From Armatimonadota bacterium (GTDB lineage Bacteria; Armatimonadota; SYMT01), in contig JAJFMS010000349.1 in assembly GCA_020696885.1 (NCBI GenBank), positions 1 to 5,116 on the forward strand: a stretch of DNA of 5,116 nt, in the 5' to 3' direction. The notes beneath the pieces were generated by a model. The model was not told the DNA's origin. It was given only the letters and a program-made list of their open reading frames with translations, and did no database searches. Each line of letters begins with the position of its first letter. Positions within the stretch are counted from its first letter, which is position 1. Both the position numbers and the translations under genes were made by a program. Positions 1-4,965 of this stretch are shown here, one piece after another.

Positions 1-244
<244 letters not shown>

Positions 245-698: not shown

Positions 699-1781
699 AT
701 GGCGCTAACGGCAGACTACCCGCTCTGGGAATGGGCGTATGACGCGATCAGCGAGCGGCTGGACGCGATTTTCGAGCACCTGGAGGGCGTGCGGCTCGGT
801 GAGGACATCGAGGCCGTGCACGGCATGCGCGTCGGCTCGCGGCGCATCGTGGCTGCGATGCGCGTGTTCGGAGCCTGTTTCCCGGAGCCGGAGTTCCGGG
901 GACTTCTCAAGGAAGCCCGCCAGATCACCCGCCTGCTGGGTGCAGTCCGGGACCTGGACGTGCTCATCGAGTATGACGAGCACCGCCGGGACGAAGTCGA
1001 GCGCGAGGAGCGGCTGGCGATCGGCTACCTCCTGGCCCTTCGCCAACGAGAGCGCCGCCGGGTGCGCCGCCCGATGCTCCGCGGCCTGGACCGCCTGGAG
1101 CGCACCCGGTTTACCGACCGGCTCCGTGACTACCTGCGCCGGGAAGCGGATGAATACCGGGCCGGAATGGATCCGTTCACCTTGATCGCGCGTGCGCCGG
1201 CTTCCGCCCCGGCATCACCCGACGGGCCCGCGCTCGGTGGGAACGAGCCGTTCCGGAGCGCCGCACCCCGGCTGCTGGAAGAGCGGCTCCACGCGCTCTA
1301 TGCGTTCGAGGAGTTCACGAGCCAGCCCGAAGCGGTGACCGAGCTGCATGATATGCGGATCGCCGCGAAGTGGCTGCGCTACACGATGGAGCTGTTCGCG
1401 CCCGCCTACGCGGACGAGCTGAAGAAGTCGATTGCGGCGGTCAAGAAGCTGCAGGAACTGCTGGGCGACCTCCATGACAGCGATGTCCGCATCGATCTGC
1501 TCCGGGCGGCGCTGGGGGGCCGGCTTCGGGTGCGGGGTCTGGAAGCAATCGGGCAGCTCTCACCGGACCCGGTCCACGCGGGCCTGAACCAGCTCCTGGC
1601 GCGCGAATTGCGAACACGGCAGGGATGCTACCGGGCCTTCTACAAGGAGTGGAAGAAACTCCAGTCACGAGGCTTCCAGAAGACCTGCACCGAACGAATC
1701 AGAAACCCTGACGCGCCCACAGCGCCAGCAGGGGAGCAAGTGGCCGGCGCCGGAGCGCCAGGAACGGAGGGCGGGGTATGA
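699..1781 (+). CDS. Stand-alone CHAD-domain protein, probable polyphosphate-binding
   Basis: This 360-residue protein carries a complete CHAD (conserved histidine alpha-helical) domain at about residues 5-335, with no CYTH domain. Both halves of the internal duplication are visible. The first has VHGMRVGSRR at 40-49 (H41, R44, R48, R49) and LGAVRDLDV at 80-88. The second has LHDMRIAAKWLRY at 216-228 (H217, R220, K224, R227) and LGDLHDSDV at 255-263. A Pro/Ala-rich linker (about 165-184) separates the halves, and the last ~25 residues look disordered. Known CHAD proteins bind polyphosphate through these basic residues and several localise to polyP granules; an enzymatic activity is not established. 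The frame is open back to an ATG at 618, but that codon overlaps a promoter-like -10 and the extra 27 residues are not CHAD-like, so 699 is preferred although its ribosome site is weak. The stop overlaps the next start (ATGA), which indicates an operon. Confidence 0.9.
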   Translation: MALTADYPLWEWAYDAISERLDAIFEHLEGVRLGEDIEAVHGMRVGSRRIVAAMRVFGACFPEPEFRGLLKEARQITRLLGAVRDLDVLIEYDEHRRDEVEREERLAIGYLLALRQRERRRVRRPMLRGLDRLERTRFTDRLRDYLRREADEYRAGMDPFTLIARAPASAPASPDGPALGGNEPFRSAAPRLLEERLHALYAFEEFTSQPEAVTELHDMRIAAKWLRYTMELFAPAYADELKKSIAAVKKLQELLGDLHDSDVRIDLLRAALGGRLRVRGLEAIGQLSPDPVHAGLNQLLARELRTRQGCYRAFYKEWKKLQSRGFQKTCTERIRNPDAPTAPAGEQVAGAGAPGTEGGV

Positions 1782-2695
1782 GCGACCAGCAGGGCATAGG
1801 ATTGGACGAGGTCCCCGGGCTGGGACGGGTCCGCCGCGAAGCGCTGGCAGAGGTGGGCGTGGTCGACCTTCCCGGCCTCCTGGCCATGAAGGTGAACGAG
1901 CTGGCGGCCGTGCGGGGCATCGGCATCTGGCAGGCGCGCAAGATCCGTGAGTTCCTGCGGCAGCGCGGGCTCCTGGTAGAGGACGGCGCTCCGGATGATT
2001 GCGAAGTGATCGTAATCCACGCGCCGGAGACGATGGAGGAGGCCACCGCCGTGGCGGAGGTGGTGGCGGTGATCGAAGCCCAGGCCGAGGCCGAGGCGAG
2101 AGTTCAAGCGGAGGTTGAGTTGATTAGCGATGCTCTGGATACGGTGCAGGGAATGCACCTGGCTGCGGACGGGGCCGCGGGAGGCTCCGCCCCGCGAGAT
2201 CCCGGTGCCCAGCGCATTCCGGTGTCGATCGAGAGCCCGAACGGCAGCTCGAGTGCCAGCCCCTCGAACACTGACGAGGCGCCCGCCGGAACCGATGAGG
2301 CGGCTCCGGAGCCGGAGGCCCCCGCCGTTCACCCGGCCGAGGAGTCGGGAGAGGTGAGTGTGCTGGACGATCTCCGCGCCCGGCGCGAGCGATTGCCGGA
2401 GCTGGCGCTGACGCTGATCGAAGCGATCCGCCAGGCGGCTGTGAGCAAACAGCTCACCCGTCAGGTCACGCGCCTGCTGATCACTTCTGGCGAGTTCGCC
2501 TCCGGAGCGCCGCAGAGCACCGAAAAGCTGGCTGAAGCGGTGGAAGCGCTGGCGCAGGCCGAGGAGCTGCTGCAGCGGGCCGTGGAGAAAGAGGCGTTCA
2601 CGGATAAGGCACAGAAGGAGCTCGCGGAGCGGATCCGCAAGCGCCGGAAGTCCCTGGATCGCTTGCTCGCGGAGCCTGAAGTCGAGGATCGATGA
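1778..2695 (+). CDS. Helix-hairpin-helix protein with unrecognised helical C-terminal region
   Basis: This 305-residue protein is of unknown function. Residues 9-60 form a tandem helix-hairpin-helix unit: the hairpins are VPGLG at 12-16 and VRGIG at 45-49, separated by helices and followed by ARKIREFL. This resembles the (HhH)2 folds that bind DNA backbone without sequence specificity. Residues 85-115 are an Ala/Glu-rich predicted helix or coiled coil. Residues 130-192 are a Ser/Pro/Ala/Glu low-complexity linker, and 195-301 are strongly charged and helical, ending in a basic KELAERIRKRRKSLDRLL stretch. I do not recognise the C-terminal part. There is no signal peptide or membrane segment. 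GGAGG at 1766-1770, seven bases before the ATG, is a good ribosome site. The start overlaps the CHAD stop and the stop overlaps the Ppx start, so it is translated with two polyphosphate genes. DNA binding is inferred from the fold; any polyP link is inferred from context only. Confidence 0.85.
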   Translation: MSDQQGIGLDEVPGLGRVRREALAEVGVVDLPGLLAMKVNELAAVRGIGIWQARKIREFLRQRGLLVEDGAPDDCEVIVIHAPETMEEATAVAEVVAVIEAQAEAEARVQAEVELISDALDTVQGMHLAADGAAGGSAPRDPGAQRIPVSIESPNGSSSASPSNTDEAPAGTDEAAPEPEAPAVHPAEESGEVSVLDDLRARRERLPELALTLIEAIRQAAVSKQLTRQVTRLLITSGEFASGAPQSTEKLAEAVEALAQAEELLQRAVEKEAFTDKAQKELAERIRKRRKSLDRLLAEPEVEDR

Positions 2696-4281
2696 AGCCG
2701 TTCGCCCCGTTCGCCGTGGTAGACATCGGCACCAACTCCATTCGCCTGGGGGTGGTGCAGCCGGAGCCGGATCACACCTACACCATCCTGTCGCAGCAGA
2801 AGGAAGTGGTCCGGTTGGGAGAGGGTGAGTTCGCTACGAACCACCTGACCGCGGACGCCATCGCCCGTGGCGTGCTGGTGCTCCGCAAGTTCGCGGACGT
2901 GGCCCGCGGCTACGGGGTGTCGGACATCACGGTGCTGGGGACCTCTGCGCTGCGTGAAGCGGAGAACCAGGGAGAGTTCCTGCAGCAGGCGGAGCAGGAC
3001 GCCGGGGTGGAGGTGCAGGTGATCTCCGGCGCCGAGGAAGCGCGGTTGATCTATCTAGGCGTGCTGTCCGGGATCGACCTGCACGGCGCCCAGCTCGCAC
3101 TGGTAATGGACATCGGCGGCGGCAGCACGGAGCTGGCGGTGGGGGATAGCTCCGGCCCCGAAGTGCTGGAAAGCATGAAGCTCGGGGCGATCCGGGTGTC
3201 GGGGATCTTCACGGAGGGCGAGACCGGTATCATTGAGCCGCAGCTCTTCCGCCGGATCCAGGAGTACGCCCGCGGCGTGGCGGTGCATCCGATCCAGCGC
3301 GTCCGGCAGTCCGGCTTCGACGTGATGTACGGGAGCTCCGGCACGATTCTCAACCTCGCGGAGATCGTGGCGCGGTCCAAAGGAGAGAGCACCAGCGGCG
3401 TCCGCGGCTATACGGTGCGGCTGGACGAGCTGGAGGCTGCCGCGGTCCGGCTGTGCGCGCTGAACCTGGAGCAGCGGCGCAAGGTGCCCGGCATCAACCC
3501 GGAGCGCGCGGACATCATCGTGGGCGGCGCCGCGGTGTTGACCTCCATCATGGCCGCCGTCGGGGCGAGCAGCCTTACCACCAGCGAGCGAGCCCTGCGC
3601 GAAGGGATGATTGTCGACCGGCTGGGGCGTGTGGTGGTCGGCGGCCCGAACGCGCTCCTTTCGGACTCGGTGCGTCATCGCAGCGTGTTCCACCTGGCGC
3701 GCCGCTGCCAGTTCGAGGAAGGGCATGCGGAGACGGTGGCGCGCATCGCCTGCTCCATGTTCGACCAGTTCGGAGAGCTGCGGCTGCACACGTTCGGCGC
3801 CGAAGTCCGGGAGCTACTCTACTACGCCGCCATCCTGCACGATATCGGCGGCTTCGTGGCCTACACCGACCATCAGAAGCACGGCTACTACCTGGTGCGC
3901 AACAGCCCGCTGCTCGGCTTCGACGGCGGTGAGATCCAGATGCTGGCGGCCATGGTGCTCCACCACCGGAAGGCCCTCCCGAAGCGCAAGGAAGAAGCGC
4001 TGGCGGACCTGAGCAAGGCCCAGCGCGAGGTGGTGACCGTGGCCTCGACCCTACTCCGGATCGCCGAGTCGCTGGACCGGGGACACCTTTCGGACGTGGC
4101 CGATGTCCGCTGCAGCATTGAGGACAAAGGGGAGACGCTGGTGATCGAGCTGATCTCCGCCGGCGATTGTCACCTGGAGCTCTGGGGCCTGGAGAACCAG
4201 CGGAATGCCGTCCGGGAGGTGTTCGGCAAGCGGCTCGAAGCGCGGTGCAGCCCGCCGGCCCCGCTGGCGGCAAGCGCCTGA
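2692..4281 (+). CDS. ppx: Exopolyphosphatase, Ppx/GppA family, with C-terminal HD domain
   Basis: This 529-residue cytoplasmic phosphohydrolase is close in length to E. coli Ppx (about 513). It releases terminal phosphate from polyphosphate; the GppA branch also converts pppGpp to ppGpp. The actin-like/ASKHA fold shows phosphate-1 VVDIGTNSIRL (9-19; D11, G13, N15), ISGAEEARLI (111-120; E116 aligns with the catalytic Glu121 of E. coli Ppx as I recall it), phosphate-2 MDIGGGSTEL (139-148; D140, G142-S145), YGSSGT (213-218), and IVGGAAVL (276-283) with LREGM (302-306). The C-terminal third is an HD domain with H345, the H383-D384 pair in ILHDIGG, H424-H425 and D462, so a full set of possible metal ligands remains. 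The start overlaps the HhH stop (ATGA); GAGG sits only four bases upstream, so translational coupling is likely. The CHAD neighbour favours polyP over pppGpp as substrate, but sequence alone does not decide. Confidence 0.93.
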   Translation: MKPFAPFAVVDIGTNSIRLGVVQPEPDHTYTILSQQKEVVRLGEGEFATNHLTADAIARGVLVLRKFADVARGYGVSDITVLGTSALREAENQGEFLQQAEQDAGVEVQVISGAEEARLIYLGVLSGIDLHGAQLALVMDIGGGSTELAVGDSSGPEVLESMKLGAIRVSGIFTEGETGIIEPQLFRRIQEYARGVAVHPIQRVRQSGFDVMYGSSGTILNLAEIVARSKGESTSGVRGYTVRLDELEAAAVRLCALNLEQRRKVPGINPERADIIVGGAAVLTSIMAAVGASSLTTSERALREGMIVDRLGRVVVGGPNALLSDSVRHRSVFHLARRCQFEEGHAETVARIACSMFDQFGELRLHTFGAEVRELLYYAAILHDIGGFVAYTDHQKHGYYLVRNSPLLGFDGGEIQMLAAMVLHHRKALPKRKEEALADLSKAQREVVTVASTLLRIAESLDRGHLSDVADVRCSIEDKGETLVIELISAGDCHLELWGLENQRNAVREVFGKRLEARCSPPAPLAASA

Positions 4282-4313
4282 TGCGCCCCGGAGCACCGCA
4301 CGGAACCCGATGA
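4281..4313 (+). other. Ten-codon minicistron bridging ppx and the next gene (possible coupling element)
   Basis: The ATG at 4281-4283 overlaps the ppx stop (TGATG). It opens a frame MRPGAPHGTR whose TGA at 4311-4313 overlaps the ATG of the next gene at 4310. Ribosomes finishing ppx could reinitiate here and be delivered to the next start. No convincing Shine-Dalgarno is present for it, and such an arrangement can arise by chance, so the peptide itself may have no role. Confidence 0.3.
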
Positions 4314-4852
4314 GCACCCGCCTCTCCGACCGACCCTATCGCATCCAGTCCTGGGACTCCGCCCGGGAGCTGTCCGGGTTTCTATCCCGCTGCGACGCCG
4401 GGAGCGTCTTCCTGGGCCAGGAGCTGGCCCGTCCGGCACGCCTCTTCTCCATCACGCTCTACCTGGACGACCCGATCCGCGAGCGGTTCGGGATCGGCGT
4501 GGCTACGACGGGTGAGACCGGCGTTCCCCACCTCCTCGTCCGGCGCGACCTGGGCCTCGCGCTCGTGGCGGCCGACCGGGAAGTGCGGGGGGTCGACGTG
4601 GAAACCGCCGCGGTCAGCGTCCACCTCAAGCTGGACTCCCCGTTCTCGCAGTTCATCGAGACCGGCGAAGCCGGCGTGATCCTGGTGTTCTACCGCACCG
4701 GCGTCATCGCGATCGCGGACGGCTGGGAGCTGTGGCGCCACGTCACCGGCCGCATCCTGGACTGGGCGAGCGAGCAGGGCACGCTCTTCCTGCGCCTGGA
4801 AGGCGCCCCGACCCTGAAGCTGGACATCCGCACCGGTGCCGAGCTCGTATAG
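4310..4852 (+). CDS. Uncharacterised 180-residue protein, last gene of the polyP operon
   Basis: I do not recognise this protein. It has 180 residues, a single Cys (28), no signal peptide and no clear membrane segment. The pattern looks like a mixed alpha/beta cytoplasmic fold. An N-terminal helix (about 14-25) is followed by alternating strands with a turn at LYLDDPIRERFGIGV, VPHLLVRRDLGLALVAADRE, and a hydrophobic pair GVILVFYRTGVIAIA. A helix with WELWRHVTGRILDWA and a closing LFLRLEGAPTLKLDI hairpin complete it. Strand and residue assignments are by eye. The chosen start (MSTRLSDR) lies 28 bases after ppx. The frame is open back to 4205, but those codons lie inside ppx. The ribosome site is weak (GGA five bases upstream; GGAG at 4290-4293 is too far), so it probably depends on coupling to ppx. 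It could be a partner of Ppx or the HhH protein, or simply a co-transcribed gene. Confidence 0.8.
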   Translation: MSTRLSDRPYRIQSWDSARELSGFLSRCDAGSVFLGQELARPARLFSITLYLDDPIRERFGIGVATTGETGVPHLLVRRDLGLALVAADREVRGVDVETAAVSVHLKLDSPFSQFIETGEAGVILVFYRTGVIAIADGWELWRHVTGRILDWASEQGTLFLRLEGAPTLKLDIRTGAELV

Positions 4853-4931: not shown

Positions 4932-4965
4932 CCCCGCGCAGGGGTAAACCGCATCCTGCGCGGGG
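4932..4965. terminator. GC-rich 11-bp inverted repeat downstream of the operon
   Basis: Perfect arms CCCCGCGCAGG (4932-4942) and CCTGCGCGGGG (4955-4965) enclose a 12-base loop that contains GGTAAACC. The stem is very stable in either strand. No T-run follows on the plus strand (CGGAGAGGG) or on the minus strand, so it may be a U-less terminator, common in high-GC bacteria, or a structured 3' end. The remaining sequence to 5116 shows only weak short dyads and no gene. Confidence 0.5.

Follow-up and report, generated by a model that had tools for sequence, protein, structure and literature searches.

Organization of the Locus

The window, meaning the whole stretch of 5,116 nucleotides that was analyzed, contains four closely spaced genes on the + strand, from position 699 to position 4852, as read from the open reading frame list and the sequence. 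These genes encode a CHAD protein, an HhH protein, a Ppx/GppA phosphatase, and a protein of 180 residues. The features of the window are as follows:

2..238, − strand: 5' part of a divergent Hsp70/DnaK gene (Pfam HSP70, E 5.2e-34)
699..1781, + strand: stand-alone CHAD protein, candidate polyphosphate binder (Pfam CHAD; similar to solved CHAD chains)
1778..2695, + strand: HhH protein, partner gene of CHAD (HHH_5; predicted model; family and neighborhood)
2692..4281, + strand: full-length Ppx/GppA phosphatase with domain III and HD, candidate exopolyphosphatase (Pfam and PDB matches)
4281..4313, + strand: 10-codon mini-ORF, MRPGAPHGTR, bridging a 28-bp gap
4310..4852, + strand: lineage-restricted 180-residue protein, perhaps beta-propeller-like (relatives, model, fold matches)
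4932..4965, no strand: perfect 11-nt inverted repeat, a terminator-like hairpin without a T run, about 80 bp past the last gene

The CHAD gene starts at the ATG at 699, and a second in-frame ATG is located at 618. ATGA overlaps join CHAD to HhH (1778–1781) and HhH to Ppx (2692–2695), and the 28-bp gap between Ppx and the 180-residue gene corresponds to bases 4282–4309. The mini-ORF overlaps both the Ppx stop (TGATG) and the start of the fourth gene (ATGA), and is a possible re-initiation link between these two genes. An initial sequence-only reading of this DNA had reported these gene positions, both overlaps, and the gap with its bridging minicistron, all of which are present in the sequence. 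The family names given in that reading to the first three proteins (CHAD, HhH, and Ppx) also hold, as each scores above its Pfam cut-off; the 180-residue protein has no Pfam match.

The divergent Hsp70/DnaK gene has a sigma-70-like site on the − strand at 382–354, and is also found beside CHAD in the two closest genomes (L032 and L033), where it is 91 and 94% identical. The interval between dnaK and CHAD contains two perfect short tandem repeats, at 468–493 (GAGTAA x4.3) and 530–565 (CACCTGAA x4.5). The hairpin at 4932–4965 is absent from the output of a consensus terminator scan, no Rfam match was found in the window, and the defense-system scan returned a weak PADLOC match alone (E 0.016).

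Domains of the CHAD, Ppx/GppA, and HhH Proteins

The CHAD protein matches PF05235 over nearly the whole profile (positions 2–228 of 228) with a score of 165.9 bits against a cut-off of 25.6 (E 1.8e-48), and is similar to the solved chains 3e0s, 6qv7/6qva, and 6qv5. PMC6537752 describes polyphosphate binding by CHAD domains and the frequent occurrence of CHAD in operons with polyphosphate enzymes. By likeness to the CHAD domains studied elsewhere, the window protein presumably binds polyphosphate as well.

The third gene encodes a protein with both parts expected of a Ppx/GppA enzyme, the core (219.2 bits, cut-off 27; Ppx-GppA E 1e-64) and domain III (108.6 bits, cut-off 27.3; E 4e-31), together with an HD match (E 6.5e-08). 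This combination of core and domain III is the same as in the exopolyphosphatases 8jgo and 1u6z, which are matched with E-values of 5.9e-61 and 1.2e-52. The protein has further matches to the GppA model and to solved guanosine pentaphosphate phosphatases. Its score with the NCBIfam exopolyphosphatase model TIGR03706 is 272.1 bits, below the cut-off of 307, and consequently pppGpp stays a possible substrate.

The HhH protein passes the HHH_5 cut-off marginally (28.0 bits against 27, E 3e-06), and two relatives score higher, at 38.5 bits (L034) and 32.9 bits (L058). The predicted model (pLDDT 77.9) consists of an (HhH)2 domain (residues 1–62), a long helix (86–133), a low-confidence linker, and a four-helix C-domain (190–297). 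This layout agrees with an alignment of 34 HhH sequences, in which the HhH part and the helical C-terminal part are conserved and the linker is variable. The HhH part has weak but consistent matches to UvrC, RadA, DisA, and the RNAP alpha-CTD. Both hairpins of the window protein contain a GhG motif (PGLG and RGIG), a motif in hairpins that predicts DNA binding; RNA or protein can also be bound by HhH domains. The net charge is 0 over the C-terminal 110 residues and −24 in the linker, so the protein is no obvious polyanion binder; the C-part has a net charge of −3 or below in three of 33 family members. The possibility that the C-domain is one half of a CHAD domain was ruled out by profile comparison (probability 3.1%).

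A protein search with the HhH protein returned at least 58 entries, the first of which is the window's own. Where names are given, these are mostly hypothetical or helix-hairpin-helix protein, and the few names that include an organism refer to Armatimonadota, Armatimonadetes, or Capsulimonas, which we take to be a member of Armatimonadota. The family is highly diverged, as members outside the two nearest genomes share just 15–29% identity with the window protein and 33 family sequences form 21 groups at 40% identity.

Gene Neighborhood of the HhH Family

The neighborhood was surveyed in 291 genomes that make up the phylum set of one relative, the sole phylum set searched by genome. An HhH profile matched 83 of these genomes, from which 31 places were fetched, mainly with frames of 150–460 amino acids; iterated profiles identified the full HhH family in 28 of the 31. 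Among the other 55 matched genomes, 47 match only in frames of 591–811 amino acids and were left out, and the remaining eight include G258 and G270 (L060 and L061), which have an HhH stretch only. Eight places fetched later, two of them additional sites in carrier genomes, all lack the full family: six have an HhH stretch only and two have nothing. Another additional site in a carrier, L057, likewise has HhH only. Four further family genomes (L083, L088, L089, and L090) came from loci centered on CHAD and are excluded from the unbiased count, and the total is 32 of 291 genomes. CHAD occurs in 128 of the 291, including all 32 HhH carriers. The CHAD loci fetched for 119 genomes number 120, as G028 is counted twice because its gene is cut by a contig end; nine genomes with weak, unlisted places were left out.

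The 28 full-family loci were all found from the HhH profile by itself, and HhH immediately follows CHAD in 25 of them, which is more than chance would give. The three exceptions are L044, where the order is CHAD, Ppx, and HhH 1.5 kb on, L052, where the contig ends 310 bases upstream, and L062, where the fetched sequence contains no CHAD gene. Downstream of HhH, a Ppx core is present in 17 of the 28 loci, within 100 bases in 13 and past one intervening gene in four. This intervening gene was scanned in L036 and encodes a metallophosphatase, and the other three are BLAST relatives of it. The sequence-only reading had staked its proposal on the genes being common neighbors in related genomes, and they are for CHAD with HhH at the frequency given above and, less regularly, for HhH with Ppx.

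The converse count begins with CHAD, which is followed by HhH in 29 of the 120 CHAD loci and lacks it in 91. A sensitive search of the downstream ORFs for HhH proteins missed by the profile gave a best E of 0.2, such that the absence of HhH at these loci looks real. Where HhH is present, 20 of 29 CHAD loci have a Ppx core downstream; where it is absent, seven of 91 do (Fisher p 1.6e-10, a significance that is overstated because related genomes were treated as independent). In six of the 91 loci (L115–L120) Ppx is upstream of CHAD, and with both sides counted Ppx is near CHAD in 13 of the 91. Nine of the 29 CHAD-HhH loci have no nearby Ppx. The nearest genomes, G001 and G212, have the CHAD-HhH pair with no Ppx after it, and instead share a gene there that is tentatively read as an oxidoreductase. 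These results support a conserved core of CHAD and HhH, with Ppx as a frequent third member.

Several further arrangements were observed in the surveyed loci. CHAD is split into at least two adjacent pieces in 34 of the 120 CHAD loci (for example L035, L036, L037, L043, and L088), as a rule a gene for the N-half and a gene for the C-half, and this occurs in 18 of 29 loci with HhH versus 16 of 91 without; of the split loci, L076 has four pieces and L079 is interrupted by the end of its contig. One reading frame in each of L044, L068, and L091 combines matches to Ppx domain III and to CHAD, and may be a fusion. In contrast to 1u6z and 8jgo, Ppx core and domain III are separate neighboring genes, the latter with HD, in 13 CHAD-HhH loci (L034, L042, L043, L045, L049, L051, L053, L055, L056, L059, and L088–L090), and a second, full-length Ppx follows the split one in L034, L043, L049, and L051. 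In L114 and L122, CHAD is followed by a domain III gene without the core.

The genes flanking the pair also include recurrent types. A pair of related genes precedes CHAD in 14 of the 33 loci compared (L034, L035, L041, L042, L043, L045, L049, L050, L053, L055, L056, L059, L088, and L090), and the pair scanned, that of L034, encodes TrkA-type potassium-uptake regulators; potassium is a counter-ion of polyphosphate. Pairs of related genes occur near CHAD-HhH in L043, L044, L048, L054, and L058, and the scanned L043 pair is thymidylate-kinase-like, scoring under the dTMP kinase cut-off. A gene for a small protein follows HhH in five loci where Ppx is not near (L046, L047, L048, L054, and L083), with a weak zinc-ribbon match in L048 and a weak DUF2007 match in L083.

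Link to Polyphosphate and Proposed Role of the HhH Protein

The genomes that carry the HhH family were also searched for polyphosphate kinases. All 32 carriers have at least one such kinase, with PPK1 present in 26 and PPK2 in 28. In 60 CHAD-negative genomes hand-picked from the same set, PPK1 is found in 30, PPK2 in 23, and at least one in 33; the difference between 32/32 and 33/60 (Fisher p 1.3e-06) is uncorrected for kinship and genome size, and many of the comparison genomes are smaller, which may lower their PPK count. The link of the CHAD-HhH operon to polyphosphate is well supported by gene context, and it is quite probable that the operon is a polyphosphate module.

Within such a module, the CHAD protein would bind polyphosphate chains or granule surfaces, the Ppx would release phosphate by trimming these chains, and the HhH protein would be the standing partner of CHAD. 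The (HhH)2 domain most likely grips double-stranded DNA without sequence preference, and the helical C-domain, extended on its flexible linker, may dock on CHAD or on polyphosphate. Docking on CHAD is the likelier of the two, given the uncharged C-part and the strongly acidic linker. The HhH protein would thereby hold polyphosphate bodies on the nucleoid, where Ppx could reach and digest them. The DNA binding, docking, and tethering by the HhH protein are proposed tentatively, as a plausible role that falls somewhat short of even credence, and the explanation as a whole, a polyphosphate operon with an HhH tether acting through CHAD, comes close to an even chance of being right. Counting against a tether next to Ppx, PMC9239181 reports that the Ppx of P. 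aeruginosa was confined to the lysate and absent from pelleted granules.

The most serious competitor is that the HhH protein regulates the expression of the operon or the activity of an enzyme, through a nucleic-acid contact like that of alpha-CTD or as an adaptor of Ppx, and has no part in placing granules. The resemblance of the HhH part to the RNAP alpha-CTD as well as to repair HhH domains would fit this role, as would the gene overlaps, which are like those of a translationally coupled complex, and the enrichment of Ppx beside HhH. However, the constant partner of HhH is CHAD rather than Ppx, which is missing from the vicinity in nearly a third of the CHAD-HhH loci, and regulation is considered unlikely, if still worth weighing.

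A different concern is the substrate. If the Ppx/GppA enzyme acted mainly on pppGpp, the operon would serve stress signaling and not storage, a reading consistent with the GppA-type matches and with the score below the exopolyphosphatase cut-off. This is improbable, as the best solved matches of the protein are exopolyphosphatases, and the adjoining CHAD gene and the PPK1 or PPK2 in every carrier point to polyphosphate. It is more doubtful still that CHAD and HhH are an inherited pair with no functional tie, kept by common descent or shared expression. All surveyed carriers belong to one phylum set and the statistics are uncorrected for kinship, as such a pair would allow, yet the pair persists at 15–29% HhH identity while its flanks change among dnaK, TrkA pairs, kinase-like pairs, a metallophosphatase, and a zinc-ribbon protein.

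The 180-Residue Protein

The sequence-only reading had placed both the HhH and the 180-residue protein in a polyphosphate module. For the HhH protein this is supported by the upstream CHAD gene and the polyphosphate kinases of the carriers, but the 180-residue protein had no counterpart among the ORFs of 125 loci, a search in which the window served as the positive control. No match was found in plasmids, or in the 291 genomes, where the search had no positive control and shows little alone. The four-gene module as a conserved unit was rejected on the basis of the locus and plasmid searches. Apart from the entry for the window itself, the matches listed in a protein search include eight relatives; one matches only partially, and the other seven, which are full-length, have the pattern S.RPYR.Q in common at the N-terminus. 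The predicted model has a pLDDT of 93.5 and matches beta-propellers in part. The 180-residue protein looks to be a lineage-specific, local add-on outside the conserved core. That all four genes form one obligate system, as the 28-bp spacing with its bridging mini-ORF and the 7103-base longest contig (ENA) listed for both HhH relative P0004 and 180-residue relative P0060, probably the same contig, might suggest, is very improbable in light of these searches and, indirectly, of the matches listed, among which no 180-residue relative is on the contigs of HhH relatives P0013 (143132 bases) and P0008 (24303 bases) and the 180-residue relative P0063 (contig of 113880 bases) has no HhH partner.

Comparison with Known Systems

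Phosin operons, in which a stand-alone CHAD protein is encoded with polyphosphate enzymes, are called frequent in PMC6537752, and the window resembles them in having CHAD beside a polyphosphate enzyme; in contrast to the window, no HhH protein is mentioned for these operons in the portion of that article available. In the literature on CHAD, exopolyphosphatase, and polyphosphate, on Armatimonadota polyphosphate, and on HhH phasins, as far as it was accessible outside most subscription papers, this operon is not described. These comparisons suggest that the polyphosphate operon is of a known kind and that the candidate DNA link is absent from the literature searched.

Proteins that bind both a storage granule and DNA are known for PHB. 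A review (PMC13052382) names PhaM, PhaF, and PhaH, the last of which, from Caulobacter, is an HhH phasin that binds DNA through this domain and places PHB granules. The simplest model that joins polyphosphate binding by CHAD with DNA-binding granule proteins is one in which the HhH protein forms a bridge between the chromosome and polyphosphate bound by CHAD. PhaH and the window protein both contain HhH, but PhaH acts on PHB granules and its DNA-binding end is C-terminal, whereas the HhH domain of the window protein is N-terminal.

For polyphosphate, the part of the review's table that was available lists one granule positioning protein, AlgP of Pseudomonas aeruginosa. In PMC9239181, AlgP is described as a granule-associated, putative DNA-binding protein with an effect on the spacing of polyphosphate granules. 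AlgP contains histone H1-like KPAA repeats, whereas the window protein has an HhH domain and no KPAA repeat in its translation. It is conceivable, although doubtful, that an undescribed HhH family, whose genes adjoin CHAD in diverged genomes of one phylum set, uses CHAD to attach polyphosphate bodies to the chromosome, often with the degrading enzyme in the same operon, as a polyphosphate counterpart of PhaH and unlike AlgP.

The occurrence of the CHAD-HhH pair, often with Ppx, in some members of a little-studied bacterial group may point to a novel means of anchoring stored phosphate on the chromosome. A protein family mostly named hypothetical thus gains a likely process, polyphosphate handling, and the list of carrier genomes, along with the relative named Capsulimonas, offers places to study the positioning of a storage polymer, its partitioning between daughter cells, and its digestion. 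If the proposed role is true, the CHAD-linked HhH family would be a second solution to the positioning of polyphosphate granules, different from that of AlgP.
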